From positions 1 through 32,768 of IMG/VR virus record IMGVR_UViG_3300009149_007658: 32,768 nt of DNA; one strand, 5' to 3'. Below the pieces are notes generated by a model. That model ran no database searches, had not been told where the DNA came from, and saw nothing but the letters and a program-made list of their open reading frames with translations. The position numbers and the translations under genes were made by a program. Source of the stretch: a virus. Positions 10,068 to 27,434 of this stretch are shown here, in pieces; within the stretch, counting starts at the first letter, position 1, and the number at the start of each line of letters is the position of its first letter.

Positions 10068-12562
10068 CAGAGATTGACAGACTGCTTGTTAGGCTTGTTG
10101 GGGACGGAACCGATTTCGAGGATATGCTTCGTGAGGCGAGTGACGCGTCAGGTCGTGCCGCACGCGATATCACCAGGCATATGGACGGCACACGGCAGTC
10201 GGTGGCCTTGCTGTCTGTCCAATTTGTCAGACTAGGCGCGTCAATAAAAGCTGCCGGTAAAAAAATAGGCCTCGCGGGCGCCGTTATGTCGGCGGCGGTC
10301 ACCGCACCTATTACTCTCATTGGTAACAGCGCTATAAATGCGGCCAGTGACCTCAAAGAATCTTTCAATGCCATGGAAGTGGTTTTTAAAGAAAATTCGG
10401 CAGAGCTGAAGAAATTAGGCGAGACATCTGCTGATACTTGGGGTATGTCGACCACAGAGTTTAATCAATTTTCCGTCAAGTTTTCAGGATTTGCTAAGAA
10501 GGTAGCGGGCGACGGCGGTGACATTGTGGGGGTTATGAAGGATATTACCGGGCGGGTGGCTGACTTTGCTTCTGTGCATAATGTGGAAATGGCGGAAGCG
10601 GGTCGTATATTCCAGTCGACTATGGCGGGGGAAACTGAACCTATACGTCGTTTTGGTAAGGATCTGTCGGCGCGTGCGGTTGAGTTGTATGCTCTTGAGA
10701 CTGGCTTGATTAAGGCGGGCGAAAAGATGACAGCCTCGATAAAAACTGTGGCAACATACAACTTATTGATGCGAGAGACGGCCGAATTCCACGGAGACTT
10801 TGCGAACACAAGCACTGATATGGCAAATGCGTCACGGCGATCCGGGGCAGCTATGAAAAATTTGTCGGCTGAAATTGGCGAAATTTTATTGCCCATTAAA
10901 ATGAGGCTGATGTCTGTGCAGTCGCTGCTAATTGGTAGATTTATAGGTATGTCGAAGGAATCTAAAGCCCTCGTCGTGAAACTTGCTTTAGTGGCGGCTG
11001 CCATTGGACCTCTACTCACAGGCTTTGGACTGTTCCTGGTTCTTGGTGGTGCGGTTATCACCACGCTTGGTAAAATGGGCCTGGCGTTTTCCATCATGGC
11101 GAAGAAGGCTACAATAGCATGGGCGTCGGCAACTCTCGGCGTGAGCCTGCTGATCTCGGCTTTGATCGCTCTTGGTTTTGGTTTTTATAATCTTCAGAAG
11201 AAGACTGGTGTATTTGACCCACTGATCGCATCCTCAAAGGAATTGTGGAAATCGCTAAAAGCCTCCCTGATGCCTGTATTTCAGGATTTCAAGAAGCTTT
11301 TGACGGAAGATCTGATGCCTGTATTCAATGATGTAATTGCAATATATGGCGAACTTATTGTTGCCGCTGCTCCCGTTATTGTATTTTTTGGTAAAATTTT
11401 CGTCTTTGTGATAAAAGGATTTGTACTTCAGCTTAAGGCTCTAATTGGCGCAATTAGCTTGGTGGTTAAGGGACTTGGGTGGTTGGCCAAGGCGGGCAAA
11501 AAGACTATGGAATTCTTCAGAAAAGAAGTAGAAAAGCCGATTAAGGCGCCTAAAATCGAGGCGGCTAAAATCGAGGCGCCCAAAGTCAAGGCGGCCAAAG
11601 TCAAGGCGGCTGCCGCTGCCCTGACTGGTGATGCCGATGCTAGGGCCAAGGACATCAAGGAGGCGGCCAAGGCGGAGGCCAAACGACAGAAAGAAATCAA
11701 AAAACTAGAGGACGACATCAACTCAATGGGTTATGCCCTGGCCCGCCAAACTGGATCCGTTAAGAAATCAGCGGAGGAATGGCGAATACACGACATGCGT
11801 ATGCGGGCGACGGCCATGGGTTTAAGTGCCAATATTAAAGAATTCACAGAACTTGAGCGTTTACTTAAGTTAAAAAATCGCCAGGAAGCCATCAAAGAAT
11901 TCAACGAAAGCACGAGGGATGCAACCATTGCGATTCACCAGCAGACCATGGCCCTCGTCCTGGGTAATGAGGAATACCAACGACAGAAACTTGCCCTTGA
12001 CGCGACCACGGCGGGGGTCAAAGACTTTTCGAAAGAACTCGCTGAATTGGACCGGGCGAACGCGATGTACAAATTGGCCCAGGACATGGATGCCGCAAAG
12101 TCAGCGGGTAAGGCGTTGACCGAATCCCACGCCACGGCGGTGGACCGCCTCGCCAAACAAATCGCAGAAGTCATCCGATTGCGGGACCTGGGCGTCATAG
12201 GCCCGAAGACATATAAACGCGAAATCACTGCCATTGATAAGGAACTGAAGAGAATTCAGGATGAGGGCAAGGTCAAAGTGACGTTTGAATTCACCGGTTT
12301 GGACGCAGGCTCGCTCCAGGATATGAGGGACATTGAACAACAGATCGCGGCGATGTCTGAAGTTCAGATTGATGGAGGGGCCGTCCGCGAAGCCAAGCGT
12401 GCAGAGTTCCTTCGTGCCGGACTACGGGGCAAAGTAGAACTACCCGCGCAAGCAAAGCCGGATAAAGATGAAAAGAAGAAATCTGAGGATTTATTGGCGC
12501 AGATCGCGCGGAATACAGACCCGCGAGTTAATAAATTGAAAATAGAGGGCGCCAATCTATGA
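10064..12562 (+). CDS. Tape measure protein
   Basis: The 832-residue protein is long, helical and Ala/Lys-rich. It has an N-terminal coiled region and an amphipathic hydrophobic stretch (APITLIGNSAINAASDLKES). The segment GMSTTEFNQFSVKF is typical of tape measures. Several membrane-type helices lie at about 303-385 (KLALVAAAIGPLLTGFGLFLV, LGVSLLISALIALGFGFY) and at about 425-470. A pentapeptide array K-(I/V)-(E/K)-A-(A/P) sits near residues 492-516. Tape measures set tail length and exit through the tube to help DNA entry. By the usual 0.15 nm per residue the tail would be about 125 nm; this figure is inference. No peptidase motif was seen. Confidence 0.85.
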   Translation: MTEIDRLLVRLVGDGTDFEDMLREASDASGRAARDITRHMDGTRQSVALLSVQFVRLGASIKAAGKKIGLAGAVMSAAVTAPITLIGNSAINAASDLKESFNAMEVVFKENSAELKKLGETSADTWGMSTTEFNQFSVKFSGFAKKVAGDGGDIVGVMKDITGRVADFASVHNVEMAEAGRIFQSTMAGETEPIRRFGKDLSARAVELYALETGLIKAGEKMTASIKTVATYNLLMRETAEFHGDFANTSTDMANASRRSGAAMKNLSAEIGEILLPIKMRLMSVQSLLIGRFIGMSKESKALVVKLALVAAAIGPLLTGFGLFLVLGGAVITTLGKMGLAFSIMAKKATIAWASATLGVSLLISALIALGFGFYNLQKKTGVFDPLIASSKELWKSLKASLMPVFQDFKKLLTEDLMPVFNDVIAIYGELIVAAAPVIVFFGKIFVFVIKGFVLQLKALIGAISLVVKGLGWLAKAGKKTMEFFRKEVEKPIKAPKIEAAKIEAPKVKAAKVKAAAAALTGDADARAKDIKEAAKAEAKRQKEIKKLEDDINSMGYALARQTGSVKKSAEEWRIHDMRMRATAMGLSANIKEFTELERLLKLKNRQEAIKEFNESTRDATIAIHQQTMALVLGNEEYQRQKLALDATTAGVKDFSKELAELDRANAMYKLAQDMDAAKSAGKALTESHATAVDRLAKQIAEVIRLRDLGVIGPKTYKREITAIDKELKRIQDEGKVKVTFEFTGLDAGSLQDMRDIEQQIAAMSEVQIDGGAVREAKRAEFLRAGLRGKVELPAQAKPDKDEKKKSEDLLAQIARNTDPRVNKLKIEGANL
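11537..11611 (+). repeat. 15-bp imperfect repeats in the tape measure gene
   Basis: About five tandem 15-bp units encode the pentapeptide K-(I/V)-(E/K)-A-(A/P). The units alternate acidic and basic versions (KIEAP, KVKAA). They mark a boundary between the membrane-type half and the coiled-coil half of the protein. Confidence 0.75.
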
Positions 12563-13856: not shown

Positions 13857-13894
13857 ACGATGGTTGCCGTCCATGCGGCGGCAGGAGCGAGTCC

Positions 13895-14386
13895 ATGCCA
13901 TTTGAGGAAGAGCCCGAACTCCCCAAACCTTTTGTTGATGTATCGGCGGGGGATCCTGATGACTCGCCAGAGAGCGTTAATAGGGTCACGGTTCGTCTGA
14001 GTATGATTCGGGAACGGTGGAGCGAAGATAGCCAATCATTCCCGTCCGCAATAGGGTGGGAAGAGTCTATTTATCACGATTCGCCGGCGTATATCGTGCC
14101 GGATTTTAAGATTGGCGCCGATGCCCTAAAACTAAATTTGGGTTGGGTTGAAGAGCCTATTCTTATATGCGTCTTGAATAAGACGTGTTGGAAGGGAACG
14201 GCCAACCCTTCCGCCGAACAAATTTCACAGATAAAAAAGTCGCTTGTTTGGATTGGTTTTGACGGGGAAACCTGGCCCCTGTGTATAAGCCCTGACGCGA
14301 GCCAACCTTTATTTGTGTCGGGCGCGTCTAGTGTTTACGTTAAGGCCGTCGAAGGCAATCCAACGATAGCGATATTCGCAACATAA
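13895..14386 (+). CDS. Unrecognised tail-region protein
   Basis: I chose ATG 13895 because GGAG stands seven bases upstream. A TTG at 13853 that overlaps the previous stop would add 14 residues with a CRPCGG motif and cannot be excluded. The 163-residue product has an acidic, Pro-rich N-terminus and then strand segments such as VNRVTVRLSMIRERW, EPILICVLNKTCW and a Ser/Val-rich end. No family is recognised. It overlaps the start of the mucin-like gene by one base (TAATG), so the two are probably translated together and may form one structure. Confidence 0.5.
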   Translation: MPFEEEPELPKPFVDVSAGDPDDSPESVNRVTVRLSMIRERWSEDSQSFPSAIGWEESIYHDSPAYIVPDFKIGADALKLNLGWVEEPILICVLNKTCWKGTANPSAEQISQIKKSLVWIGFDGETWPLCISPDASQPLFVSGASSVYVKAVEGNPTIAIFAT

Positions 14387-16443
14387 TGGCTGATAAAATA
14401 TTCGGACTTACCGAAAAGGATGTTGACAAGCTTAAGGAAATGGGCCTTGAGCTTGACACAATAGTCCAGGAGCTTCGCGGCGGTCCGGGTGAAGATGTTT
14501 ATCAGGCAGCGGACCATTACATCGCCAAGCTCCCTGATGACGGGGTTCTTCCCTCCGCGACTGATGGTGATGACGGCTGTCCCATCCCGGGGACCCATGA
14601 TCATTGCTGCATTTACAAGATTGACCTGAATCCCAAATCCGCTTCATTTGGTTCTCTAGTTAGGCTGAACGTCTCAAGCACAGCCGAGCCTATTCGCCAA
14701 GTTGTCTATAATATTTACTTGGAAGAGCGGTTAGCGAACCAGGGTACGTTTCGAGTTCTGCGTCTGAAAAATGGTGGCTGGCTGGCCGAGAAATCATCGG
14801 GTACGGCAACCACAACCACAACCACAACTACCGGAACGGGCTGCGCCGGCGCGTGCGTCTGGTCATGGAATACGGGGACGGATGAATGGGATGAACTCAT
14901 TAATACATGCGTCACCACAACTACCACAACTACCACTACGGGCGCCTGCGATTGCCCACAGACTACCACAACTACGACAGCGGTGTCCGGGACGACAACG
15001 TCGACGACTACGACTACGGCCTGCAAATGCCTGAAACCGCAATGCTGTGGAGTCCAGGCGGGTGATAGGTCGACTACCCGATGCTCAGAGGGCGGGAACG
15101 TCGCCCTGGTCTGTACAACTACGACTACGGGCGGACCCACAACTACCACAACTACCACAACTACCACATGCGATTGTGGGACGACGACCACGGGCGCAAG
15201 CGGTGATTTTGGGTGTGGCTTGTGCAGTTGGATTATCAATGCGTCGGGCAGCGCGACATACATTGGGTCTTCGTGTTCTGGTAATTGTATTTGTCCGCCA
15301 ACCCCGTCATCCCCAACATGCCAGCTAGTATCACTTCCGTGCTTGCGTCAATCGACGTTGCCGCCACCCGTGCCCGTTCCGGTGGAATGCTCCGGGACAT
15401 GTTCAATTACATGCGTGGGCGGGCACTTAATATCATCATCTAATTCTTGCAATACGTCTGTCGCAGGATGTTCGTGTTCGTTAACTTGCCCAGATACGGG
15501 ATGTGTTACAATAAATACCCCGTGCGTCGCTCCAACTACGACGACCGCAGCGGTTACAACGACTACCGCTGCGGGCGTTCCTTGTGATTATTGCTATGAA
15601 GTAACGACGACAACGGGTGTAACGACGACCACAACTACGAGCGCGTGCGAAACCACATGCAAACACCGATGGTCGACGAGCGGCGCTTGGGTTGTTGCTC
15701 AGGCGTGCCCATCGCCTGCGAAATGCTACTGCCCCGATCCGGATTACGATGGGCAAATGACTAATGAAGTCACTTGTACTAAGTGCGCGCCAACTACCAC
15801 ATCTACCACATCTACTACGACAACTACGACAACTACCGGGGCGCCAACTACCACTACCACCGCCGCTTGTGTTGCGTGTGACACCGATCTGAATGATCCT
15901 GCCTGGGCTGGATGTGCATCACAATATGGCGCCCAGTGTTTTTGCGTCTATACTTGTGAGGCGGGTACTTGGACACAATCAGCCATAGGATCCAATTGCG
16001 CGGGTTCGTGTGATGCGAGTTTATCTGTGCCGACTTACCCTGAATGTGGCCCGGGGCAGGGACTTTGTGAGTGTGTTTGCGTGCCTTGCGCGACGCCCTG
16101 CACAACTACGACTACCACAACTACCACAACTACCACAACTACCACAACGGGCGCCGGTGGCACGACCACTACAGGCGCCGGTGGCACGACCACTACAGGC
16201 GCCGGTGGCACGACCACTACGGGCGGACCAACTACAACTACAACAACAGCGACTCATGAAGCATGTTGCATATACGCCAAAGCACCAACAGAAGGATGCA
16301 TTTTCCAAGAGCATGATCTAATAAATTGCACAGATAATGTGGAAAATTGCACCTCAGTTGGCGGTCTCTGCTGCCAACCAGACTGTAATATTTTGAGGCA
16401 GGCGAGTTGTGAGCAATGCCCACCCACTTGGACAGATCAATAA
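14386..16443 (+). CDS. Mucin-like threonine-rich virion protein with cysteine modules
   Basis: The 685-residue protein has an N-terminal domain of about 135 residues that includes GTHDHCCIYKIDLN and probably anchors it in the particle. After that, poly-threonine tracts of 4 to over 15 residues alternate with small Cys-rich modules of roughly 30-50 residues. Several modules follow a CxxxCxW...W...C...CxC scheme (CAGACVWSWN; FGCGLCSWI; CETTCKHRWS). Near the end GAGGTTTT occurs in perfect tandem. The C-terminal domain is again Cys-rich (EACCIYAKAP, LCCQPDCN). Thr tracts between disulfide modules are the layout of mucins and of heavily O-glycosylated adhesins. The next gene encodes a polypeptide GalNAc-transferase-like enzyme, so these tracts may be its substrate. 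A fibre, whisker or head decoration is possible. Confidence 0.7.
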   Translation: MADKIFGLTEKDVDKLKEMGLELDTIVQELRGGPGEDVYQAADHYIAKLPDDGVLPSATDGDDGCPIPGTHDHCCIYKIDLNPKSASFGSLVRLNVSSTAEPIRQVVYNIYLEERLANQGTFRVLRLKNGGWLAEKSSGTATTTTTTTTGTGCAGACVWSWNTGTDEWDELINTCVTTTTTTTTTGACDCPQTTTTTTAVSGTTTSTTTTTACKCLKPQCCGVQAGDRSTTRCSEGGNVALVCTTTTTGGPTTTTTTTTTTCDCGTTTTGASGDFGCGLCSWIINASGSATYIGSSCSGNCICPPTPSSPTCQLVSLPCLRQSTLPPPVPVPVECSGTCSITCVGGHLISSSNSCNTSVAGCSCSLTCPDTGCVTINTPCVAPTTTTAAVTTTTAAGVPCDYCYEVTTTTGVTTTTTTSACETTCKHRWSTSGAWVVAQACPSPAKCYCPDPDYDGQMTNEVTCTKCAPTTTSTTSTTTTTTTTGAPTTTTTAACVACDTDLNDPAWAGCASQYGAQCFCVYTCEAGTWTQSAIGSNCAGSCDASLSVPTYPECGPGQGLCECVCVPCATPCTTTTTTTTTTTTTTTTGAGGTTTTGAGGTTTTGAGGTTTTGGPTTTTTTATHEACCIYAKAPTEGCIFQEHDLINCTDNVENCTSVGGLCCQPDCNILRQASCEQCPPTWTDQ
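16150..16221 (+). repeat. Three tandem 24-bp repeats encoding GAGGTTTT
   Basis: Units 16150-16173, 16174-16197 and 16198-16221 are identical except for the last base of the third. Each encodes GAGGTTTT in frame. Near-perfect identity suggests recent expansion and possible length variation between relatives. Confidence 0.95.
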
Positions 16444-16465
16444 AGGATTACTTTAGGAGCGAGAC

Positions 16466-18439
16466 ATGAAACTGACTATAGGTATGGCCCACCATACTGA
16501 CTTCCACGGTGTCTACTTCACCATTCAGCATATCCGACAGACGAACCAAAGACTAAAAGATTTTGAGTTTATTGTCGTTGATACCTCGGGCGGGTCAGCC
16601 AATCCGCTGAGTCAGGCGCATAGCAGCGATCTGGCCAATTTCATAGAACACTGCAAACGGGGGACCGCAGGCGCGCGTTTGGTCACGCTCGATGAAAAGC
16701 AGTTTTTTGGCACCAGCCAGGGCCGGAATGCTGTTTTTGATTTTGCTGACGATGATTCAGCTGTTATATGCATGGATTGTCACGTGTTACCCGAACCCGG
16801 GTCCATGGACGCACTTCTCAATTATTTTGAGAATAATCAGGATAGCAACGATCTCATCCAAGGGCCAATCCTGAATGATGATATGTCCGTTATGGCGTGC
16901 ACATTTGCTGATGAATGGCGGGAGGAGATGTGGGGTATTTGGGGCATGGATGACCGTTGTCTAAGCCACGAGGATGTAGAACAGTTGCCTATTGCGAGGC
17001 GTCTTGAATTTACCTCAGCTTTGCCTACGTTTGAGATTGGCGCTATGGGGCTTGGTTTGTTTGCGAGCATGAAATCGTCATGGCTTGCATTCAACCGTCA
17101 TTTTCGCGGGTTCGGCGGCGAGGAGTGGTACATCCATGAAAAGTTTCGGGCGGCGGGGCACAAGTGCCTTTGTCTCCCGTGGCTGCGGTGGACCCATCGA
17201 TTCGGCCGTCCGGACGGTATTGCCTATCCAATTTCACGGGAACTGAAGGTTCGCAATTACATCCTCGGGCATCAGGAGCTCAACTTGCCCCTGGGGCGTC
17301 CCTACGAGCATTTCGTAGAATCTGGTTTACTTTCTAAAGAAGTTTGGAACTGGCTACTCGAAGACCCGGAAAAACACATCCCGGAAATGGGAATTCCCCA
17401 GCAGATTCGAGCCCAGTTCGCGGAAGCACGGGAAAACCTATCCGCTCCGCCGGTGGAAGCGCCGGTGAACCGATCCCGTCCTCAGCCTATGTCGGGGTCA
17501 TCTGTATCTGAGATTTTGATATGGTGCAAAAAGATTCCACGAGATTTGGATGAGCATTTGGATTTAATGGCCATGTGGTCAGATCAGGTGGATCATGTTA
17601 CTGAATTTTCGGAACGGCGAGAGAGCGCCGTAGGCCTCCTCGCGGGCAAGCCCCTGAAATTTGTGAGCTATAATCTGGAAAATGACCTTTTATTAACGCA
17701 GGGGGGCGAGCTCCTTCAGGCGTTGGTCCGCGAAAATGACCAGCGAGTGGTCGATGGGGACGGTGGCCGGATTACGGAAATGGTCCAAATCCCGGGCAGC
17801 TCATTGACGGTGCCCCCTATTGAAGAAACGGATTTACTGTTCCTCGATACCCTTCACAACGGCTCCCGTCTATGGTCAGAACTTGTGTTGCACGGGCCTC
17901 AGGTTCGCCGAGCGATCATGATTCACGATACGGCGTCCTACGGCGAGAAGGGTGACGATGGAAGCCATGGGTTGAACGAGGCCCTCCGAAAATGGCTGGC
18001 GGAAAATCCCGAATGGTTCATCGCTTATTATAAACCTCATCAGTACGGGATGACGGTCATCAGCAAGGATGAACGCGACCGACCGCCGAATATAGTTCAC
18101 GCCTGGCCACCCGGCAAAGGACCCGGGACGGAATTGCAGAAAATCCTCAAAAGCGCCGGAATCGAACCGAATGCTAGTTGCGATTGTAACGGCAAAGCCC
18201 AACAGATGGATCTATGGGGCGTGCCCGGTTGTAACGAGCATTTTGATGAGATTGTGGCGTGGATGAAGGACGGCGAGGACCGGTGGGGCTGGAAGGGTAA
18301 GTGGAAGGCGGGCGCAAGGATGCTCGCTAAGGATCCGATCCTCGCCTTCAAATTAAGGCCCAGTGACCCGTTCCCCGGACTGATTCGCGCGTCAATTAAA
18401 CGAGCCCAGAGTGAAGAAAAAAGAGAAAAAACTACTTGA
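16466..18439 (+). CDS. Polypeptide GalNAc-transferase-like (GT27/GT-A) enzyme fused to a methyltransferase-like domain
   Basis: Residues 1-285 form a GT-A glycosyltransferase. It has CMDCHVLPEPG (D104-x-H106, the DxH metal motif of polypeptide GalNAc-transferases), then GFGGEEWYIHEKFRAAGH (215-232) like their GGEN...FRxxxCGG block, and RWTHRFGRP with H244 in the place of the third metal-ligand His. Residues about 345-545 resemble the methyltransferase-like protein of the next gene (HVTEF, LLFLDTLHNG, IMIHDT), but the cofactor loop is altered. Residues 550-600 are a small Cys-containing domain (GPGTELQKIL, CDC, MDLWGVPGC). It directly follows the threonine-rich gene with a 22-base gap and AGGAG site. 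GT60-type polypeptide GlcNAc transfer is an alternative. Activity is inferred. Confidence 0.75.
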   Translation: MKLTIGMAHHTDFHGVYFTIQHIRQTNQRLKDFEFIVVDTSGGSANPLSQAHSSDLANFIEHCKRGTAGARLVTLDEKQFFGTSQGRNAVFDFADDDSAVICMDCHVLPEPGSMDALLNYFENNQDSNDLIQGPILNDDMSVMACTFADEWREEMWGIWGMDDRCLSHEDVEQLPIARRLEFTSALPTFEIGAMGLGLFASMKSSWLAFNRHFRGFGGEEWYIHEKFRAAGHKCLCLPWLRWTHRFGRPDGIAYPISRELKVRNYILGHQELNLPLGRPYEHFVESGLLSKEVWNWLLEDPEKHIPEMGIPQQIRAQFAEARENLSAPPVEAPVNRSRPQPMSGSSVSEILIWCKKIPRDLDEHLDLMAMWSDQVDHVTEFSERRESAVGLLAGKPLKFVSYNLENDLLLTQGGELLQALVRENDQRVVDGDGGRITEMVQIPGSSLTVPPIEETDLLFLDTLHNGSRLWSELVLHGPQVRRAIMIHDTASYGEKGDDGSHGLNEALRKWLAENPEWFIAYYKPHQYGMTVISKDERDRPPNIVHAWPPGKGPGTELQKILKSAGIEPNASCDCNGKAQQMDLWGVPGCNEHFDEIVAWMKDGEDRWGWKGKWKAGARMLAKDPILAFKLRPSDPFPGLIRASIKRAQSEEKREKTT

Positions 18440-19001
18440 ATTCGCCTATTGCCGCGCGAGGGACAAGCCCAGCGATATAAACATGCATGTCCCGCGACTA
18501 CGACAACTCGCCGAGCAATGTGAACATGTCACAGAGTTCGGCGTTCGTCATGGCGTAAGCACGACGGCCCTGCTCGCGGGCGCCGTCAGCGGAAAGCTTC
18601 AACGGCTGGTCAGCTATGACCATAAGTTGTGGGGCAGGGAGAATGATTTACGGGACTTGGCGCCGGATGTTTTCAAGTTCGTTAAAAAGTCGACTCTTGA
18701 AATAAACATCGCCCCGACCGACATGCTTTTCATCGATAGCCGTCATACTTATTCCCAGCTGTCCTACGAATTGCTTCGCGGGTATGACAAAGTCAGAAGG
18801 TGGATTGCCCTCCACGATACGAGGCTTTTCGGCCACCGCGATGAAAGTATGGTTAAAGGACCGGGCCTCCTACTTGCCGTTCGCGAGTTTTTGGCCGCAA
18901 ACATGGATTGGTTCGTCGCTGAGCATTATGAGTATAACAACGGGTTTACCGTTTTGAGTCGGAATTCCAAAGATAGACCATCCATCATAATGGAGATTTG
19001 A
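18411..19001 (+). CDS. Class I SAM methyltransferase-like protein (Methyltransf_24 type)
   Basis: The GTG start overlaps the previous gene by 29 bases. The 196-residue protein shows VTEFGVRHGVSTTALLAG (41-57, motif I region), RLVSYDH (65-71), DMLFIDSRHTYSQL (104-117) and WIALHDT (131-137), the layout of Methyltransf_24 and cephalosporin hydroxylase-like proteins. Unlike the related C-terminal domain of the upstream enzyme, the EFGVRHG loop is intact, so this copy could bind SAM. It might methylate sugar hydroxyls of the glycan. An alternative is a non-methylating relative of the same fold. Confidence 0.7.
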   Translation: MKKKEKKLLEFAYCRARDKPSDINMHVPRLRQLAEQCEHVTEFGVRHGVSTTALLAGAVSGKLQRLVSYDHKLWGRENDLRDLAPDVFKFVKKSTLEINIAPTDMLFIDSRHTYSQLSYELLRGYDKVRRWIALHDTRLFGHRDESMVKGPGLLLAVREFLAANMDWFVAEHYEYNNGFTVLSRNSKDRPSIIMEI

Positions 19002-19514
19002 GTGCACGGAAGTAGTATGAAGCTGATGGAAGGTCTCATCGATAAATACGTTCCCCATACGGATTCGACCTCTGGTAGTTTTTCCGTGTTGGATGTCGGG
19101 TCCCATTCTAGCAATGGGCCAAGCTATCGCCGCATGTGCGAGGACCGGGGGCTTGCTTATACTGGTATGGATATTCGCGAAGGACCAAATGTTGATCTCG
19201 TGGTACATCACGATTTCCAGAATACGTTCTCAGATCACATCAGTGGAAATTATGATATCGTCATTTCTGGACAGTGTATGGAACATGTGGCTGCCCCTTG
19301 GCTATGGATTCGAGAAATTTACAAACTTGTAGAAGTAGGCGGATTGGTGATCGTAATCGCCCCTTGGAAGTGGCAATTTCACGCGCATCCGATTGACTGC
19401 TGGCGCGTGTTGCCCGATGGGATGCGGGGACTATTTGTGTGGACGGATCTCAAGGTTCTGGAGGTTGGTATTCCGGAGGGTACTCCTGATTGTTTTGGGG
19501 TGGGCACCAAATGA
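19002..19514 (+). CDS. SAM-dependent methyltransferase (Methyltransf_11 type)
   Basis: The GTG start follows TGGAG by six bases and directly abuts the upstream stop. In the 170-residue protein, SVLDVGSHSSNG (28-39) is motif I, YTGMDIREG (53-61) the acidic cofactor-binding strand, and DIVISGQCMEHV (85-96) and GGLVIVIAPWKW the later motifs. The protein is short for a stand-alone class I methyltransferase and has little room for an acceptor domain. Cluster context suggests a sugar or glycan acceptor. It overlaps the sulfotransferase start (ATGA). Confidence 0.75.
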   Translation: MHGSSMKLMEGLIDKYVPHTDSTSGSFSVLDVGSHSSNGPSYRRMCEDRGLAYTGMDIREGPNVDLVVHHDFQNTFSDHISGNYDIVISGQCMEHVAAPWLWIREIYKLVEVGGLVIVIAPWKWQFHAHPIDCWRVLPDGMRGLFVWTDLKVLEVGIPEGTPDCFGVGTK

Positions 19515-20092
19515 GTATTGTGAACAAAAAATACGGCCACGTGTTTGTCCACGTCCCGAAGACGGGCGGGACTTCGATGGAGCGCACGTGGTTCGTGGGC
19601 GGCAATGATCACGAGAAAATTGAACGCATGGACTCGCCGTCCGATTGTTTTCGATGGGGTTTTGTTCGCAATCCATTTGACCGGCTCGTATCAGTTCACT
19701 CGGCCATCTGGCAGCACCCCAACAAACTGTTGCGTAAATTTGTTCCGAAGGATTTCGATGAATTTGTTCAGGCGCTCCCGGATTTAAGGGAGTTTGTCCA
19801 TATCACTCCACAGGTCAAATTCCTTTGTATTAAGGGCAAAATCGCCGTTGATTTCGTGGGGAGGTATGAAGATTTATACCGTGATTGGGCGTTTGTTTGT
19901 TGGAATATTGGCAGGTACGCCACCATCCCCCACATCAATAAGACTGAACACAAACCATGGGGTGAATATTACACCTCACCGCAAACCGTCGACGCAGCGA
20001 TAGAATACTATAAGGACGATTTTAAGGTTTTTGGTTATCGGAGCGAGATTTATGCATGTAACAGCGATTTGTCCGACATTTCGTCACCCTGA
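19511..20092 (+). CDS. PAPS-dependent sulfotransferase
   Basis: The ATG at 19511 overlaps the previous stop by ATGA; 193 residues. FVHVPKTGGTSME (12-24) is the 5'-phosphosulfate-binding loop and GFVRNPFDRLVSVHS (50-64) contains the 3'-phosphate-binding Arg and Ser of the carbohydrate sulfotransferase superfamily (Sulfotransfer_2-like). The enzyme would transfer sulfate from PAPS to a hydroxyl, most likely on a sugar, given its neighbours. Cellular PAPS would come from the host. Length is somewhat below typical sulfotransferases, but both cofactor motifs are intact. Confidence 0.85.
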   Translation: MSIVNKKYGHVFVHVPKTGGTSMERTWFVGGNDHEKIERMDSPSDCFRWGFVRNPFDRLVSVHSAIWQHPNKLLRKFVPKDFDEFVQALPDLREFVHITPQVKFLCIKGKIAVDFVGRYEDLYRDWAFVCWNIGRYATIPHINKTEHKPWGEYYTSPQTVDAAIEYYKDDFKVFGYRSEIYACNSDLSDISSP

Positions 20093-20789
20093 GTTGTTAG
20101 CCAACAGCGTGGCGCTATGGATGATGCAGGATTACCCTCTTGAGGATAGACGATTAATCATTCTCGATGACGATCCTACGTTTCATCGCCACGGGGCGGC
20201 GGGGTGGCAGCTTTACCCTATTGCGCCACGCCTACCATCGATTTCCCATAAGTATAACATGCTCTTGGATAGGGCATTTGATGGACAGACGGATGTCATT
20301 ATGGTTTGGGAAGATGACGATATCTATCTTCCTGGGTACGTCTCAGCTCATGTCGCGGCGCTGGAAAACGCGGAGTATAGTAAGGCGGAACACGTGCTGT
20401 CAGACTATAAAAAGGGTCAGATTATCGTGGAGCCTGCCCGGGGGCGATTCCATTCTTCGATGGCGTTCCGGTCTGAATTAATTGACCGCGTTGGCGGCTG
20501 GCCAGATACGCGACGCGCGGATTTCGATCAACAGCTGATGTCCCTGCTCGAGGAGAATTCGGCGCAAACCGAGTCCCCGTGGGATGATTCCCATCCTGAA
20601 TCCATCCCGTTCATTTACCGCTGGCATAGCGGCGCGGCCCATTGTCAGAGTACGATGAAGAGCCCGGACGATGAGACATGGTATGACCGCGCGGCGGAGG
20701 CGTACGCTAAAGTGCCGTTTGTCGGGACCCTTGCTCCGCGTTTGGACGATTTTTCCAAGGCGTGCGTGGCGAGGTACGAGGCCAAATGA
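20052..20789 (+). CDS. Family 2-like glycosyltransferase (GT-A)
   Basis: I use ATG 20052, with GGAG nine bases upstream; it lies 41 bases inside the sulfotransferase gene. The 245-residue protein starts HVTAICPTFRHPELLANSV, as GT2 enzymes do, has LIILDDDP (36-42) and the nucleotide-sugar metal motif VWEDDDIYLPGY (85-96, D88-D90). A later SSMAFRSELIDRVGGWPD is the acceptor-side GGWPD signature of GT2. It would extend or initiate a glycan using an NDP-sugar. The donor cannot be told. Confidence 0.85.
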   Translation: MHVTAICPTFRHPELLANSVALWMMQDYPLEDRRLIILDDDPTFHRHGAAGWQLYPIAPRLPSISHKYNMLLDRAFDGQTDVIMVWEDDDIYLPGYVSAHVAALENAEYSKAEHVLSDYKKGQIIVEPARGRFHSSMAFRSELIDRVGGWPDTRRADFDQQLMSLLEENSAQTESPWDDSHPESIPFIYRWHSGAAHCQSTMKSPDDETWYDRAAEAYAKVPFVGTLAPRLDDFSKACVARYEAK

Positions 20790-21772
20790 GAGTTCTCATA
20801 ACGGGGGTTGCCGGCCATCTCGGTAGTAAATTGGCCCGATGGTTGATCAATGAAAACCAAGATAAGGTCTTTGGTATCGATGACCTTTCCAGTGGATATA
20901 TCGAGAGTGTGCATCCAGGGGTGGTTTTCCGCAAGCGGTCCCTTGGACGTGATCCAATGCCTGATCTTGGTGATATCGATTACGTCTTTCATTTTGCGGC
21001 GTATGCCGCCGAGGGTCTATCGCCATTTATCCGCCACCACAACTACGTCAATAATCTTGTCGCGACGGCTGATGTGGTCAATTTCTGCATTAAAAATAAA
21101 GTAAGGCGTTTGGTTTTCACGTCCTCAATGGCAGTGTACGGGGAGGGGAACCCACCGTTTTCGGAAATATCTGAATGCGATCCCATCGACCCGTACGGCA
21201 ACGCCAAGCTTGCGTGCGAGCGGGACATTCAAATTGCGGGCGTTCAGCATGGCCTGGATTGGTGCATTATTCGGCCTCATAATATCTACGGACCGGGCCA
21301 GGATATCTGGACCCCATACCGAAATGTTCTTGGGATCTGGATGGCGAAGGCTCTGCAAAACTTGCCTTTGACCGTCTACGGGAGCGGTCTCCAAAGACGC
21401 GCATTCAGCTATATTGATGATATTTTACCGTGTTTGTATGAGGCCGCAGCGTCGCCGCACGCCTCGAAGCAAATCATTAATCTTGGTGGAACTGACGCGG
21501 TTAGTATTAACAAGGTGGCGTCCGTAGTATCAACTCTCACCGACACGCCGATAAAGTATGCGGAGGGGCGCCATGAGGTCTTAAACGCATGGTGCACAAC
21601 TTCCAAAAGTCGGAGTATTTTGAAGTATAAAGAGTCCGTACCATCAATTTCGGGGATCAGCGCTATGTGGGAGACCGCCAAAATGATGTGGGCTCGTTTT
21701 CCGCAGCGTCGCGGAAGCCACAAAATTGATATGGAGATCACGGAAGGACTTTACTCGTACTGGAAAGACTGA
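20786..21772 (+). CDS. NAD-dependent nucleotide-sugar epimerase, GalE-like SDR
   Basis: The ATG overlaps the previous stop (ATGA). The 328-residue extended SDR has the Rossmann motif TGVAGHLG (6-13), FTSSMAVYG (111-119) and the catalytic pair Y137/K141 in PYGNAK. The SSMAVYG form lacks the Asp/Glu seen in 4,6-dehydratases, so C4 epimerisation (UDP-Glc/Gal or UDP-GlcNAc/GalNAc) is the better guess. In this island it could make UDP-GalNAc for the GT27-like enzyme. RPHNIYGPGQ and SGLQRRAFSYIDD are the usual substrate-binding segments. Confidence 0.85.
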   Translation: MRVLITGVAGHLGSKLARWLINENQDKVFGIDDLSSGYIESVHPGVVFRKRSLGRDPMPDLGDIDYVFHFAAYAAEGLSPFIRHHNYVNNLVATADVVNFCIKNKVRRLVFTSSMAVYGEGNPPFSEISECDPIDPYGNAKLACERDIQIAGVQHGLDWCIIRPHNIYGPGQDIWTPYRNVLGIWMAKALQNLPLTVYGSGLQRRAFSYIDDILPCLYEAAASPHASKQIINLGGTDAVSINKVASVVSTLTDTPIKYAEGRHEVLNAWCTTSKSRSILKYKESVPSISGISAMWETAKMMWARFPQRRGSHKIDMEITEGLYSYWKD

Positions 21773-21832
21773 TGCTTCATCTGCCACCAAAACATTACGC
21801 TTGCCAGACATATGTGGGAATAGGAGATCAGC

Positions 21833-22552
21833 ATGAAATGGGCCGTAGGCGTCACGACAGTTCCGAAGCGGATGAACGATGGGTTGTTGGATCGGACTTT
21901 GGAATCCCTAAACGATACGGGGTTCATTGATCCGGTGATGTTTGTGGATGGCGAGGGCCTGGCCACTGATTGGGCCGTTTTTCGAGGTGAGTCCGTTACG
22001 GCTTACGGCAATTTCTTACTTGGGATTTGGGAGCTTTTTATCAGGAATCCCTCGGCGGACCGGTTCGCCATGTTCCAGGATGATCTGGTCGCATCCAAGA
22101 ATCTTCGGGCGTACCTGGAGGCGGTCCCGTATCCGCCGTCATCGTATCTGAACCTCTACACATGGCCATGCAACGCCAACACGGCGGGTAACCCTAATTG
22201 GAACCCGGATCGGACAGGGTTTATTTTGAGTGACCAGATGGGACGCGGTGCGGTTGCCCTGGTGTTCGATAATGCTACGGTGCGGACCCTTTTGTCGAGC
22301 CGTGAGATGGTCGAGCATTTGAATGATTCCCACCGCAGTACGCGGGCCATTGACCGCGCCGTGAAGAATGCGTTGGGCGGTGCCCACATCCGGGAGTTCG
22401 TACACAATCCAAGCTTGGTTCAGCATACCGGGACGTATTCTGTAATTTCCAAGCGGAACAACCACCACCCGGAATCGCCCATATTCAACGGCGAGGATTT
22501 TGATCTCTTATCACTATTGGAATGCAATGGACCAAAAAGTCACGATTCGTAA
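21833..22552 (+). CDS. Glycosyltransferase-like protein (GT-A, FQDDL motif)
   Basis: A TAGGAG site precedes the ATG; 239 residues. WAVGVTTVPKRMNDGLLDRTLESL at the N-terminus and RFAMFQDDLVASKNL (78-91, likely DxD-type metal site D83-D84) look like a GT-A enzyme. The later DQMGRGAVALVFDNATVRTLL and VHNPSLVQHTG fit the acceptor side of GT25- or MGAT4-like folds. The exact family is not recognised. It starts 60 bases after the epimerase gene, the longest gap within this part of the island. Confidence 0.65.
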   Translation: MKWAVGVTTVPKRMNDGLLDRTLESLNDTGFIDPVMFVDGEGLATDWAVFRGESVTAYGNFLLGIWELFIRNPSADRFAMFQDDLVASKNLRAYLEAVPYPPSSYLNLYTWPCNANTAGNPNWNPDRTGFILSDQMGRGAVALVFDNATVRTLLSSREMVEHLNDSHRSTRAIDRAVKNALGGAHIREFVHNPSLVQHTGTYSVISKRNNHHPESPIFNGEDFDLLSLLECNGPKSHDS

Positions 22553-22838
22553 TAGCAGCCTTGATTGGCGTGAAATTGGAAATAGGACTGTTGAGCTCCT
22601 CGATATAAACGTTGGCAACGCGGAGCGACGGCAGGGGGTCGGCACCAAGCTTGTTTTGGAAATGATGGAAGATATGCCTAGCGATACCGGGCTGATCATT
22701 GCCATAACCCGCCAAAGTAATGAGGTTGCCCAGGAATTTTATGAATCTTTGGGCTGGCGGATCGTAGGACGTCTTCACCGGTTCTATCCCGATAAGAGTG
22801 GCGGAGAATCAGCCCTTATGTATGGATTGGATGTATGA
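22527..22838 (+). CDS. GNAT-family N-acetyltransferase
   Basis: The ATG at 22527 with a weak GGAA upstream gives 103 residues, overlapping the previous gene by 26 bases. LLDINVGNAERRQGVGTKLVLEMM (24-47) holds GNAT motif A, RRQGVG, which binds the CoA pyrophosphate. NEVAQEFYESLGWRIVGR is motif B. The N-terminal strand region is short. In this cluster an amino-sugar N-acetyl- or N-acyltransferase acting after the DegT aminotransferase is an attractive reading, but protein or small-molecule targets are possible. Confidence 0.8.
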   Translation: MDQKVTIRNSSLDWREIGNRTVELLDINVGNAERRQGVGTKLVLEMMEDMPSDTGLIIAITRQSNEVAQEFYESLGWRIVGRLHRFYPDKSGGESALMYGLDV

Positions 22839-23788
22839 AAGTCGGATCATTTGTCTTTGCAACCGATCAGGGACTTGGTTATTTAGCTAAGTCTTTTTAC
22901 GATAATGACGTCGTGACTGATGTGATTATGGTGCAGCACGGAAGCCGTGAAAATCACGTAGATTGGTATCCGGGCGCCACGATCCTGCCCGCAAGCAAAC
23001 TCAAGATCATGCACGCCAAAGAATTCGTCCGAGAAATGGACGTGATGTTTTTCTTTGAGACGCCGTTTGATTGGAATATCCTTGAGTTTTGTCGCGAGGT
23101 GGGAACAAAAACCGTATTAATGCCCATGCACGAGTGCACGCCTAAGATCCTACCACAAACGCCTGATGTGTTCCTTTGCCCGTCCGCTTTAGAACTTGGG
23201 CTGTTTGGTGGCTCATTCATCCCCGTCCCGGTCGGGGTCCCGTGGTCTGAGCGACGTGTGGCCAAGCGGTTCGTACACAATGCCGGCAACGGGGGCCTGC
23301 TTGGGCGGAACGGCACAGACGTAGTCGTGAAGGCGATGGAGTACATCGAAAGTGACGCTGAAATAGTCATACGTTCCCAAGAGAAGATTGTGGGGTTGGA
23401 TCAGGAACCGGAACATGTCCCGGCCGATCAACTTTACGACGGTGATGTTTTTCTATTTCCTGAGAAATTTGACGGTTTATCCTTGCCACTTCAGGAGGCA
23501 TTTGCCTCGGGAATGCTTGTTATGGCCTTGGATCGATATCCGGTCAATACGTGGCTCCCGCGAGGGCCGTTACTCCAGGTTGAGCGGTACGAATCCAACA
23601 GCATCGCAAAGGGTTTCTACGAATTTGATGAGGCGATTGTGAGCCCAAAGAATGTTGCACGGTGGATTGATTCCTGGTACGGCCAAGAAATCGGCGATTT
23701 TTCGATGATGGGCAAGTGGTGGGGGCAGCAGAATTCTTGGGTGGAGCTTCGCCCCAAATATATTGAGTTTTTGGAGGCCATCGAATGA
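22835..23788 (+). CDS. Family 4-like glycosyltransferase (GT-B)
   Basis: The ATG overlaps the upstream stop (ATGA). The 317-residue protein has a C-terminal GT-B donor domain with VFLFPEKFDGLSLPLQEAF (205-223) and SGMLVMALD after it, matching the EX7E region of GT4 enzymes, although Asp (D213) stands where the first Glu is usual. The N-terminal half is reduced, with FFFETPFDWNILEF and LMPMHECTP. It would transfer a sugar with retention. The substituted first residue is a mild oddity. Confidence 0.75.
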   Translation: MKVGSFVFATDQGLGYLAKSFYDNDVVTDVIMVQHGSRENHVDWYPGATILPASKLKIMHAKEFVREMDVMFFFETPFDWNILEFCREVGTKTVLMPMHECTPKILPQTPDVFLCPSALELGLFGGSFIPVPVGVPWSERRVAKRFVHNAGNGGLLGRNGTDVVVKAMEYIESDAEIVIRSQEKIVGLDQEPEHVPADQLYDGDVFLFPEKFDGLSLPLQEAFASGMLVMALDRYPVNTWLPRGPLLQVERYESNSIAKGFYEFDEAIVSPKNVARWIDSWYGQEIGDFSMMGKWWGQQNSWVELRPKYIEFLEAIE

Positions 23789-23842
23789 AGGCTATAACGA
23801 GGGTCGCGCGGACGGGTCCGCTCGATGCAGAACGGGGCGAGC

Positions 23843-24751
23843 ATGAAAATTCTGTACGTCGGTAACCACAACCAACCCAATTCCAACGACGATGAGGGCG
23901 CTATTGCGTATTCCCTCGGCAAGGTACTCGGGCACGCTGTTGTGACAGCGGGCGAGGACATTCCCCAGGAACAGATATTGTCCCTGGCAGGTCAGTTTGA
24001 CTTGGTACTGTTCCACAAATGGGCTGATTTCGATACCATTGCCAAAATCAAAACGCGCAAAGCGTTTTGGTATTTCGATTTGGTTGATTACGATGACCCT
24101 GAAATCTTGCATAGGTGTCGGCTGCGCATGGCATGGATGGACCGCATGATGCCCCTGGTCGACATTGGGTTTTGTACGGACGGGGACTGGGTGCGAGCCA
24201 ATGCTTGTCACGGCAAACTTGTCCGGTTGACCCAGGGCGCTGATGAGAGATTCACCGGCCTGCGCCTGACTAATTCCCTTAAACGCAAGATACTCTTTAC
24301 TGGTATTAAAGACGGCGGAGTTGGCCGACGCGAGTTTGTTGATTTCCTGAAGGCGACATACGGACCCGCTTTACGGTGGATCAGAAACGGCACCCATCAG
24401 GAGAGCCTTGCCCAGGAAATAGCGGACGCGTCCATCGTGGCGGCGCCGGACCACCCAACTACAGATGATTACTGGAGTAACCGGGTTTACCTAACTCTCG
24501 GTTTTGGTGGATTTTTGATGCATCCCTATTGCGGGACCCTTGCCAATCATTATGTAGATGGGAAAGAGATTGTCCTTTACCGGGGACATGATGATTTTAA
24601 GAATAAAGCTAGCCACTACATGGGCCAGCCGGAACTCCGCGAGGCGATAGCTAAAGCCGGGCTGCGGCGGACCCTAAAGGAACATACTTATACTCACCGA
24701 TGCCAAACTTTGATAGAAATGGTGCAAAATGCCAAGACCTATAATGGATGA
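23843..24751 (+). CDS. CgeB-like glycosyltransferase (GT-B, Glyco_trans_1_2)
   Basis: I choose ATG 23843, preceded by GGGGCGAG; ATG 23825 in frame is the alternative. The 302-residue protein (counted from 23843) has YVGNHNQPNSNDDEGAI at the N-terminus and, at about 209-245, DDYWSNRVYLTLGFGGF followed by YVDGKEIVLYRG, the signature of CgeB-type spore maturation and phage GT-B enzymes. LRRTLKEHTYTHR closes the domain. It overlaps the next gene by 23 bases. A sugar-transfer role in glycan assembly is likely; donor and acceptor are unknown. Confidence 0.8.
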   Translation: MKILYVGNHNQPNSNDDEGAIAYSLGKVLGHAVVTAGEDIPQEQILSLAGQFDLVLFHKWADFDTIAKIKTRKAFWYFDLVDYDDPEILHRCRLRMAWMDRMMPLVDIGFCTDGDWVRANACHGKLVRLTQGADERFTGLRLTNSLKRKILFTGIKDGGVGRREFVDFLKATYGPALRWIRNGTHQESLAQEIADASIVAAPDHPTTDDYWSNRVYLTLGFGGFLMHPYCGTLANHYVDGKEIVLYRGHDDFKNKASHYMGQPELREAIAKAGLRRTLKEHTYTHRCQTLIEMVQNAKTYNG

Positions 24752-25244
24752 GAATTTTTGGCGTGATCGGCTGATGACCGCCGACGACAAGGGGGAACGG
24801 CACAAGGCCGTTTTTGAGTGCCCTATGTCGACATGGCGTAGCATTGAGGATGCCCACAGGCGGATTTTGGATAGGTTGGTAAAACCCGAAGATTCTATCC
24901 TTGACGTTGGTTGTGGCTGGGGGAGACTCCTTTGCCTATTGCCGGACTCATGGGCTGGTATTTACCATGGTTTGGATATCAGTCCTGATTTCGTGGAACT
25001 GGCCAGGGAAGAGCACGAGAGTCAATACTGGTTTTTTCAGATGGATATGCTTGAAATTCCTGAGAATGCAGGCCTGGAACGTGAGTATGATTGGGCGGTC
25101 GCTATCAGTATAAAGCCCATGATAATCCGTGAAGTCAGCCTTGAGGCGTGGCAAGAGCGGGAGGCGGCTATTCTGACCCGGGCAAAGAAAATTTTGTTTT
25201 TGGAATACGATGCGGACGATCCAGGTGCAATTAAGGAGCGATAG
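24729..25244 (+). CDS. Class I SAM-dependent methyltransferase
   Basis: The ATG at 24729 gives 171 residues; ATG 24744 is an alternative start that removes five residues, and neither has a strong ribosome site. SILDVGCGWGRLLCLLP (56-72) is a textbook motif I, YHGLDISPDFVELAREE the second strand and motif, and EYDWAVAISIKPMII the later region. The acceptor part is short. Placed between a GT-B enzyme and a dehydratase-like gene, it probably acts on a sugar or glycan. The stop overlaps the region of the next start. Confidence 0.8.
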   Translation: MPRPIMDENFWRDRLMTADDKGERHKAVFECPMSTWRSIEDAHRRILDRLVKPEDSILDVGCGWGRLLCLLPDSWAGIYHGLDISPDFVELAREEHESQYWFFQMDMLEIPENAGLEREYDWAVAISIKPMIIREVSLEAWQEREAAILTRAKKILFLEYDADDPGAIKER

Positions 25245-25246
25245 TG

Positions 25247-26233
25247 ATGAGGGAAAACCCGGGCAAGATTTATGACGCGAATGTCTGTGTCGTCGGCGGC
25301 GCAGGCTTTCTAGGGTCCCATCTGGTCAATCACTTGATCGAGGAGCGGCTCTGTAATGTGACCGTTGTCGATAATCTGACGGTCGGGCGGCGGGAGTTCA
25401 TTCATCCGGCAGCCCGGTTTGAGCACCACGATATCACCGGGAGCGAAACCCACCTCGCTAAATTTTTCAATGAACATCAGACCCAATTTGTGTTTAATTA
25501 TGCCGCCCACCCGTATATCCCGGTGTCGTACGACCGTCCGCTCCACGTATTCGAGACCAATGCAACGGGCGCCATGAAGGTGATTAACGGCGCCCAGGAA
25601 GCCCATTGCGAGGCGATCTTACAAGTATCGTCCGCCGAGATTTACGGAAGCGCAAAGTTGGGGGTCCTTAATGAGTCCTACCCAGTTGAGCCTCATTCGA
25701 CGTACGGGGTCGCCAAGGCGGCGGTCGATCAATATTGCCAAACATCGTGGAAAGAGCGGAACACTCGCGTGATCTCCATGAGGCAGTTTAATTGCGTAGG
25801 ACCCCGTGAAACCCACCCGTACGTGATTCCCGAAATCATCAGCCAAATCCACGTAGGCAAACGCGAGGGGATGTATTACCGGGTGGATCTCGGGAATAAT
25901 ACACATCGGGATTTCCTGGCTGCGGGCGACGCCGTCCGCATGGCGACCGAGTTGCTGGAGCATGGCGAGTTCGGCCAGGTCTACAATATGGGAAGTGAAT
26001 CCGCAGTTCAGATTTACGATCTGGCTTGTATGATAGGACGGCTAATGGGGCGGGATTGTGTAGTCCGCAAGGATGAAACGCGGGTGCGGCCGTGGGAAAT
26101 CTGGTATTTGATGAGTGATAACACTAAACTTTACGATACCATCGCATATCGGCCACAAATGGGTTTGGAGGATTCGTTGGAGTTGACAATCGAGGATTTC
26201 CATCGAAATGGGGATAAGTGGGTTTGGCAATAG
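25247..26233 (+). CDS. NDP-sugar 4,6-dehydratase-like SDR
   Basis: ATG 25247 has AAGGAG eight bases upstream and is preferred over GTG 25244. The 328-residue extended SDR has GGAGFLGSHL (17-26), QVSSAEIYG (126-134) and the catalytic Y153/K157 in STYGVAK. The Glu in SSAEIYG stands at the general-base position of the TDE/TSE triad of 4,6-dehydratases, in contrast to the GalE-like SDR of this island. RQFNCVGPRE and NNTHRDFLAAGDAVRM complete the family pattern. It would give a 4-keto-6-deoxy sugar, the substrate type of DegT aminotransferases, whose gene follows. An epimerase function cannot be excluded. Confidence 0.75.
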   Translation: MRENPGKIYDANVCVVGGAGFLGSHLVNHLIEERLCNVTVVDNLTVGRREFIHPAARFEHHDITGSETHLAKFFNEHQTQFVFNYAAHPYIPVSYDRPLHVFETNATGAMKVINGAQEAHCEAILQVSSAEIYGSAKLGVLNESYPVEPHSTYGVAKAAVDQYCQTSWKERNTRVISMRQFNCVGPRETHPYVIPEIISQIHVGKREGMYYRVDLGNNTHRDFLAAGDAVRMATELLEHGEFGQVYNMGSESAVQIYDLACMIGRLMGRDCVVRKDETRVRPWEIWYLMSDNTKLYDTIAYRPQMGLEDSLELTIEDFHRNGDKWVWQ

Positions 26234-26242
26234 GAGAGAGAG

Positions 26243-26476
26243 ATGGATGTAAAAGACGGACAGACCTGTGGCACTTGTGGTTTGTGTCATGCGGCGAATG
26301 ATAAGTTGGGTACGTGCCGAATGGACCCGCCAAATTTGATGTTCCTCCCAAAACCGGCGAATGTGACTACCGGCGCGGGACCGCAGATGCAGCCAACGAC
26401 GATTTACCCGACTGTCGATATCACCGATGTGGGATGCGGGAGGCATACACAACGTGCAGACCTACGAAGAACTTGA
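26243..26476 (+). CDS. Small zinc-binding-type cysteine protein
   Basis: AGGAGAGAGAG precedes the ATG; 77 residues. TCGTCGLC, then GTCRMDPP and DVGCGRH give a CxxCxxC...C...C pattern with a terminal His. This matches a group of small phage proteins with CGTC...C...PP...CGxH that look like metal-binding knuckles. It overlaps the aminotransferase gene in another frame. Function is unknown; a redox or assembly helper role is conceivable. Confidence 0.65.
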   Translation: MDVKDGQTCGTCGLCHAANDKLGTCRMDPPNLMFLPKPANVTTGAGPQMQPTTIYPTVDITDVGCGRHTQRADLRRT

Positions 26477-27434
26477 GGTCGCATGGGCTGAATTTAACGG
26501 CTTAGACCCCGCTGGAATGGTTGTCTGTTCTAGCGGGTCTTCTGCTTTGCACCTCGCCGCGACTATTGCTCCCGGGCAAGCCCGGTGGCCGTCACGACCG
26601 CCTGTCGCGATTATGCCCGATTACACCATGGTGGCGTGTCCCCGGGCGGCGGCCATGGCCGGCATGATCCCCGTTTTCATGGATTGTGGTGATGATTTAC
26701 TATCGACAGACAGGGATATCCGCGAAACCAATCCAGCCTTCAGGAATACCAGGGTATTTATGCCCGTCCATATTTACGGGCGGCAGGTTGATATAGGAAT
26801 CTTTGTTGGCGTTGCGAGGGTACTGGGGGCGGCCGTCATCGAGGATATGTCCGAAATTCACGGGGTTAATCCTCATCCGGATACGGACGCCGCGTGCTGG
26901 TCGTTTTACCTCAATAAAATCATTGCGGGTGAAGAGGGCGGCGCCGTCTACTTCAGAGACCCCGAAAAAGCTATCTTGGCTAGAAGCCTTCGCTCGATGG
27001 GTTTTACCGACGCTCACGACTTTATGCACGTCCCGGGCGGGTTTAACTACCGAATGTCCAATGCCCACGCAGGGTTAGTTTTGTGTAGTCTAAGGGACTA
27101 CCCTACAATGTTGGCCGGGCGTCGATACAACGAATCAGTCTACGATTCGCTGGTGCCACTCGAATGGCAAATGCCTCCACGGGCGGCGCCGTGGGTCTAT
27201 GATATTCGGTTGCCCTTCCCTGACATGGTTGACGAGGTCGTGCGTGCGATTCCGGGAGCAAGGCACGGGTTCAAGCCTATGCGGATGCAACCTGAATTCT
27301 TAGAGGCGGGATATAGGGACACGAACGCATTTCGCATGTCGCAACAAATCATGTACCTGCCGCTTGGTCCCGAAATTCACAAAAACCGTATCTGCGAAAT
27401 GGTTGAAACGCTAAAGCGAACCATCGGCGCATAA
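26454..27434 (+). CDS. DegT/DnrJ/EryC1/StrS-type sugar aminotransferase
   Basis: I prefer GTG 26454 with GGGAGG ten bases upstream; ATG 26427 in frame, deeper inside the previous gene, is the alternative. In the 326-residue protein, CSSGSSALHLA (25-35) is the cofactor phosphate-binding loop, VIEDMSEIHG (128-137) has the Asp that pairs with the pyridine nitrogen, and SFYLNKIIAGEEGG (150-163) contains the PLP-linking K155. These enzymes aminate 4-keto (or 3-keto) NDP-sugars. Together with the upstream dehydratase-like and GNAT genes it could give an acetamido-deoxy sugar. It is the last gene before a terminator. Confidence 0.85.
   Translation: MQTYEELEVAWAEFNGLDPAGMVVCSSGSSALHLAATIAPGQARWPSRPPVAIMPDYTMVACPRAAAMAGMIPVFMDCGDDLLSTDRDIRETNPAFRNTRVFMPVHIYGRQVDIGIFVGVARVLGAAVIEDMSEIHGVNPHPDTDAACWSFYLNKIIAGEEGGAVYFRDPEKAILARSLRSMGFTDAHDFMHVPGGFNYRMSNAHAGLVLCSLRDYPTMLAGRRYNESVYDSLVPLEWQMPPRAAPWVYDIRLPFPDMVDEVVRAIPGARHGFKPMRMQPEFLEAGYRDTNAFRMSQQIMYLPLGPEIHKNRICEMVETLKRTIGA

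Follow-up and report, generated by a model that had tools for sequence, protein, structure and literature searches.

We analyzed a 32,768-bp window (the whole stretch examined here, positions 1 to 32,768 of virus record IMGVR_UViG_3300009149_007658) that carries a tailed-phage structural module. Within it, a gene for a protein of Thr tracts and Cys-rich modules (14386-16443) is followed after 22 bases by a gene for a 657-residue enzyme (16466-18439), and the co-directional run of genes after the enzyme reaches 27434. An earlier annotation made from the letters alone (the sequence-only reading) had described the first product as a 685-residue poly-Thr protein with Cys modules and the second as resembling a polypeptide N-acetylgalactosamine (GalNAc) transferase, with no terminator between them. 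The open reading frames and the gap are as it described, and no terminator-like site was seen when the 22 bases were searched. A tape-measure-like gene upstream (Table 1) places the pair in the tail module, and in relatives tape-measure and other tail genes also precede the Thr protein gene. The locus thus shows a glycosyltransferase encoded near structural genes, a feature of phage virion glycosylation.

The Thr-tract protein contains 11 Thr runs of at least five residues, the longest of 16, which alternate with Cys-rich modules (65 Cys in the protein); this is the mucin-like arrangement of dense Ser/Thr domains between Cys-rich modules. Searches of Pfam and PHROGs with this protein returned zero matches. 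Its N-terminal domain (residues 1-136) was modelled at a predicted local distance difference test score (pLDDT) of 79, and the model had zero fold matches in the PDB. The domain recurs weakly in 13 other loci; all proteins sharing it also bear Thr tracts, and it was found nowhere else. Since 9-nt and 24-nt tandem units occur within some of the tracts, it is likely that the tracts grew by slippage. The same units would suit the view that the tracts are a DNA-repeat artefact of slippage or misassembly with no role at the protein level. However, codon use inside the tracts is near-equal (26 ACC, 28 ACA, 31 ACT, and 27 ACG), ACG and ACC predominating among Thr codons elsewhere in the window, and all four codons are mixed inside the tracts of most loci beyond the window as well. 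The mixing speaks for retention of the tracts at the protein level and largely refutes the artefact, which is very improbable given also that in-frame tracts recur across dozens of independent assemblies.

For the enzyme, Pfam alone gave a weak family-2 glycosyltransferase match. The AlphaFold2 model of its glycosyltransferase domain reached a pLDDT of 92.6 and a predicted template modeling score of 0.91. Upon comparison of this model with the PDB by Foldseek, the 49 best matches were all polypeptide GalNAc-transferases (E 6e-12 to 1.5e-9; template modeling score normalised to the query, ∼0.6-0.7), and the first other enzyme appeared at rank 50. A family profile built from a 60-member alignment of diverse relatives matched GALNT10 (E 3.5e-6), GALNT4, Toxoplasma GalNAc-T3 (TgGalNAc-T3), GALNT7, and Drosophila PGANT9. 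The matches to GALNT10 and GALNT4 span the Asp-x-His motif as well as the C-terminal His motif, and in GALNT10 both halves of the catalytic domain. D104, H106, and H244, the Asp/His/His metal triad, are invariant in 60 of 60 members and align with the DSH and VGH motifs of GALNT10. PF02709 weakly matched 13 of the 60. GT60 was absent among the fold and profile matches, no comparison aimed at GT60 having been made. By predicted fold and by family profile, then, the N-terminal domain is GT27-like, which bears out the earlier assignment. Recent transfer of the enzyme from a eukaryote seems unlikely, as the ∼16% identity in the structural alignment with GT27 speaks for deep divergence. Residues 355-545 share 38% identity with 18459-18995 in the next gene (18411-19001), adding a fourth methyltransferase-like domain to the three genes of the island downstream. 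A Cys-containing C-terminal domain (CDC ... MDxWGxxGC; 18100-18439) occurs in one other fetched relative alone (L016:9989-12004).

To examine the pairing, relatives were fetched by the enzyme alone, and viral contigs were dereplicated at 70% identity and kept where the upstream side was intact, which yielded 43 loci. A Thr-tract gene was taken as one whose product holds 13 or more Thr within a stretch of 30 residues, a threshold set after a first look at the data. Such a gene lay immediately upstream of the enzyme in 31 of the 43 loci, usually less than 70 bases away, and somewhere in the fetched DNA in 37. The controls were the other genes of the same loci and the genes beside random poly-Thr proteins. 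Only 5 of 321 genes not adjoining the enzyme passed (1.6%), which corresponds to a binomial p of ∼1e-46, a value that is only indicative because the loci share ancestry; dereplication at 50% left the Thr-tract gene upstream in 15 of 21. Genes directly downstream of random poly-Thr proteins were rarely glycosyltransferases of any sort, and when the GT4-like enzyme and the sulfotransferase of the window served as control queries, viral contigs yielded zero relatives. The association is specific to the residue, as 31 upstream genes passed for Thr, 4 for Ser, 2 for Pro, and 0 for any other. When the tracts were masked, the partner proteins, viral and bacterial, fell into ∼25 groups between which blastp similarity was undetectable, although some groups may be remote homologues via their Cys modules. 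This implied that the Thr tract itself is the shared, recurring feature. Fold, catalytic signature, and recurrent adjacency together support the earlier proposal, in which a GT27-like initiator and a Thr-tract substrate of its own form a pair. An apparent fusion of Thr tract and enzyme at locus L119 was set aside, the joining reading frame crossing a masked gap.

The enzyme family is patchy in bacterial genomes (8/298 and 7/392 genomes in the two sampled groups), and viral and bacterial members interleave in a family tree with few well-supported deep branches. Since the 13/30 threshold was set after a first look, held-out bacterial genomes gave a cleaner test, for which a looser threshold of 8 Thr in 20 residues was used; a Thr-rich neighbour was found at ∼6/7 Planctomycetota loci. 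In one bacterial clade, PqqD-like or HprK-related domains are fused to the enzyme, and its neighbour is often a small protein that combines a Tat-like signal with a Thr-rich tail (for instance at L104, L110, L111, L116, and L117). Tat exports folded proteins matured in the cytosol. PqqD-like or HprK-related N-terminal domains or nearby genes, often beside signal-bearing Thr-tailed small proteins, were observed at L104, L105, L110, L111, L113, L114, L116, L117, L121, and L126, and it is possible that these loci form a RiPP-like or glycoprotein export cassette of their own. They recall the cassettes of HprK-related kinase A and PqqD-family chaperone (TIGR04352, TIGR04353) in that HprK-rel-A-like domains are joined to the enzyme in some bacterial relatives, with PqqD-like genes close by, but all matches are below curated cut-offs and no such domain matched in the window enzyme. 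GalE lies near L117, where it passes the curated cut-off, and, by eye from the sequence, near L116. Sulfotransferase-like genes were likewise picked out by eye near L104 and L114, the L104 candidate having no NCBIfam match.

Taken together, these results suggest that a cytosolic GT27-like polypeptide O-glycosyltransferase glycosylates the Thr tracts of the adjacent tail protein and that the island downstream elaborates the glycan, an explanation we consider likely. Several observations weigh against it. The enzyme has Phe where the WGGE motif of GALNT10 has Trp. A TarP-like, general family-2 enzyme (6h1j) resembles the N-terminal half and outscores GALNT10 there. In addition, a Pfam scan of the full window enzyme found no ricin lectin domain of the GT27 enzymes; for this reason, together with the Phe and the methyltransferase-like C terminus, we call the enzyme GT27-like rather than a member of GT27. 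The sequence-only reading had held that its proposal would be refuted by relatives with the island but without any Thr-tract protein. This applies in part, as the enzyme occurs with no tract in the fetched DNA at six of the 43 viral loci, and none lies near many of its bacterial relatives. Among held-out Hyphomicrobiales loci, ∼2/7 had a Thr-rich neighbour; outside phages and Planctomycetota, where the association is strong, it is thus partial. Conversely, among 76 viral contigs that carry a poly-Thr gene in frame, only 2 had this enzyme nearby, many of these contigs being short. The enzyme thus usually has a poly-Thr neighbour, while a poly-Thr protein needs no such enzyme nearby. Viral contigs often encode poly-Thr proteins (of 120 pattern hits, 76 were in frame), most of them without this enzyme nearby.

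That most poly-Thr viral proteins are found without the enzyme would also agree with the tracts being unmodified flexible linkers, in which case the enzyme would act on another virion protein, such as the capsid or tail tube, and the adjacency would be an inherited accident of the operon. Capsid and tail-tube glycosylation has been described in mycobacteriophages (Freeman et al. 2023, cited in PMC11600133). We regard this alternative as unlikely since the Thr enrichment is specific and most partners, once their tracts are masked, show no recognisable homology to one another; simple inheritance of a single operon therefore fails to explain the pairing.

Table 1. Features of the window discussed in the text, in order of position.
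Feature	Coordinates	Strand	Supporting evidence
Mu F-like head morphogenesis protein	26-1600		
Capsid-like protein	4339-5562		
Tape-measure-like protein	10064..12562	+	PHROGs tail length tape measure families, e.g. phrog_3981 2e-13
Three genes between tape measure and Thr-tract protein	12559-13476, 13485-13856, 13853-14386	+	
Thr-tract/Cys-rich protein, proposed O-glycosylation substrate, 685 aa	14386..16443	+	
GT27-like glycosyltransferase domain	16466..17317	+	AlphaFold2 pLDDT, Foldseek, GALNT10 profile match, invariant residues
Motifs in GT27-like domain: DCH, FGGEE, WTHRF	16775-16783, 17111-17125, 17189-17203		
C-terminal methyltransferase-like domain of the same protein	17528..18100	+	Related to next gene, 18411-19001
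Methyltransferase (Methyltransf_24)	18411..19001	+	5e-8, above cut-off
Methyltransferase (Methyltransf_23)	19002..19514	+	2e-6, just above cut-off
Sulfotransferase	19490..20092	+	PF03567 6e-18, far above cut-off; phrog_3347 Galactose-3-O-sulfotransferase
Possible family-2 glycosyltransferase (weak)	20031..20789	+	PF00535 12 bits, below cut-off; PDB E 0.09
Nucleotide-sugar epimerase, SDR	20762..21772	+	galE best model, far below its curated cut-off
Protein without family match	21833..22552	+	
GNAT acetyltransferase	22500..22838	+	PF00583 7e-9
Possible GT4-type glycosyltransferase (weak)	22835..23788	+	Sub-threshold PF13692/PF00534; zero PDB matches
Glycosyltransferase (Glyco_trans_1_2)	23825..24751	+	PF13524 5e-19; phrog_28745
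Methyltransferase (Methyltransf_25)	24729..25244	+	7e-10
Nucleotide-sugar 4,6-dehydratase-like (LegB-like)	25244..26233	+	TIGR04180 1e-42, below equivalog cut-off
Sugar aminotransferase (DegT family, LegC-like)	26427..27434	+	PF01041 1e-32; TIGR04181 below cut-off

The genes that follow the enzyme form an island of predicted sugar-modifying functions (Table 1). Profile matches support, at the family level, the epimerase, the LegB-like and LegC-like proteins, the GNAT protein, the sulfotransferase, the three methyltransferases, and the glycosyltransferase at 23825. The sulfotransferase and the three methyltransferase genes had been predicted from sequence and held up on analysis. Other predictions stood in part: the GalE-like epimerase is an SDR protein that falls well short of a curated galE assignment, and the amino-sugar gene set is recognisable (25244, 26427, and the GNAT gene at 22500) at the family level only. 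The count of four more glycosyltransferases was overstated, since that at 23825 is solid, those at 20031 and 22835 are sub-threshold, and 21833 has no family match. What follows the enzyme gene in relatives is often a family-2 glycosyltransferase (19/116 scanned) or a methyltransferase, and in three cases, including the window's own, a sulfotransferase. These differences indicate that the decoration set varies. In one relative, a gene after the enzyme matches the anti-Pycsar protein Apyc1 (PF23023, 1e-25).

Host O-antigen is a well-known target of phage glycosyltransferases, and the epimerase, LegB-like, and LegC-like genes of the island resemble surface-polysaccharide genes. The island enzymes could then modify host surface glycans, for receptor masking or superinfection exclusion, and lie beside a tail gene since the host-recognition region is a hotspot for cargo. 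We find this quite improbable. We recognised none of the membrane-anchored glucosyl carriers, flippases, or phosphoglycosyltransferases that characterise systems of this kind, and this explanation does not account for Thr-tract upstream neighbours in 31/43 loci, the ∼25 partner groups, or the Thr-tailed neighbours in some bacteria. A membrane-segment scan of the island gave nothing convincing, the sole stretch over the cut-off being weak (1.78) and located in the DegT aminotransferase, which belongs to a soluble family; nor was any phosphoglycosyltransferase, flippase, or oligosaccharyltransferase recognised there in Pfam-level scans. The lack of these components speaks for direct transfer in the cytosol, step by step and with nucleotide sugars as donors.

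Outside the island, a Pfam scan of the three genes between the tape measure and the Thr-tract protein returned zero matches, as did PHROGs for the two of them tested. Three otherwise unlike head-region proteins have in common the peptide motif NH(S/P)GGHGKKS(K/R): 1911-2993 (at residue 239), 6608-6985 (residue 23), and 7802-8194 (residue 14). The copies differ in synonymous codons, and the motif is in no other fetched locus. A DUF932 protein lies at 28546-29562 (phrog_1221, 4e-62).

To our knowledge, initiation of mucin-type glycosylation by GT27 enzymes is generally regarded as eukaryotic. The window enzyme is similar to the GT27 polypeptide GalNAc-transferases of animals and Toxoplasma in the fold of the catalytic domain, in the Asp-x-His and C-terminal His signature, and, as far as the sequence suggests, in an apparent Thr-rich polypeptide acceptor. 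It differs from them in its low identity, in its occurrence in a prokaryotic virus, in the lack of a lectin domain or membrane anchor, and in having its candidate substrate encoded next door; moreover, members of its family often carry a long extension at the C terminus, which in the window is methyltransferase-like, or, in bacteria, HprK/PqqD-like domains. No enzyme match was found in 50,697 named phage records searched with four family members, or in plasmids searched with one enzyme query. Literature searches likewise turned up no account of phage GT27-like enzymes or phage Thr-tract partners, most subscription journals lying outside our coverage.

Two described systems offer partial parallels, each by description only. 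In mycobacteriophages, phage-encoded glycosyltransferases lie beside a methyltransferase gene and structural proteins are modified, but the targets are the capsid and tail tube, and the passage that describes them does not mention a Thr-tract partner (PMC11600133). In Caulobacter, FlmG O-glycosylates flagellin in the cytosol, a direct transfer onto a protein that is exported later; the abstract describes no Thr-tract substrate (PMC7591256).

Returning to O-glycosylation of the tail protein, we infer the following course. The enzyme would use a nucleotide sugar in the cytosol and place the first sugar directly on Thr within the tracts, before or during virion assembly. Downstream gene products would then extend and decorate this sugar with more sugars, O-methyl groups, sulfate, and an acetylated amino-deoxy sugar. 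The product may be a stiff, hydrophilic, mucin-like stalk that spaces disulfide-rich modules on the virion surface. GalNAc as the donor sugar is a guess from the modelled fold, and the labels "GalNAc" and "sulfated mucin" are plausible ones.

Dozens of unrelated viruses and some bacteria share the pairing, and the sequences and models suggest a prokaryotic counterpart of mucin glycosylation. The broader proposal, to which we give somewhat better than even chances, is of a deep GT27-like lineage in tailed phages and several bacterial phyla that starts dense O-glycans on adjacent, dedicated poly-Thr substrates; phages would employ it for virion fibres, and bacteria for exported proteins with Thr tails. 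If true, such loci would be single-operon enzyme-substrate pairs that could be reconstituted in E. coli, and they would account for one class of long phage proteins with Thr tracts. The finding would also bear on the origin of mucin-type glycosylation and on how phages alter their surfaces.

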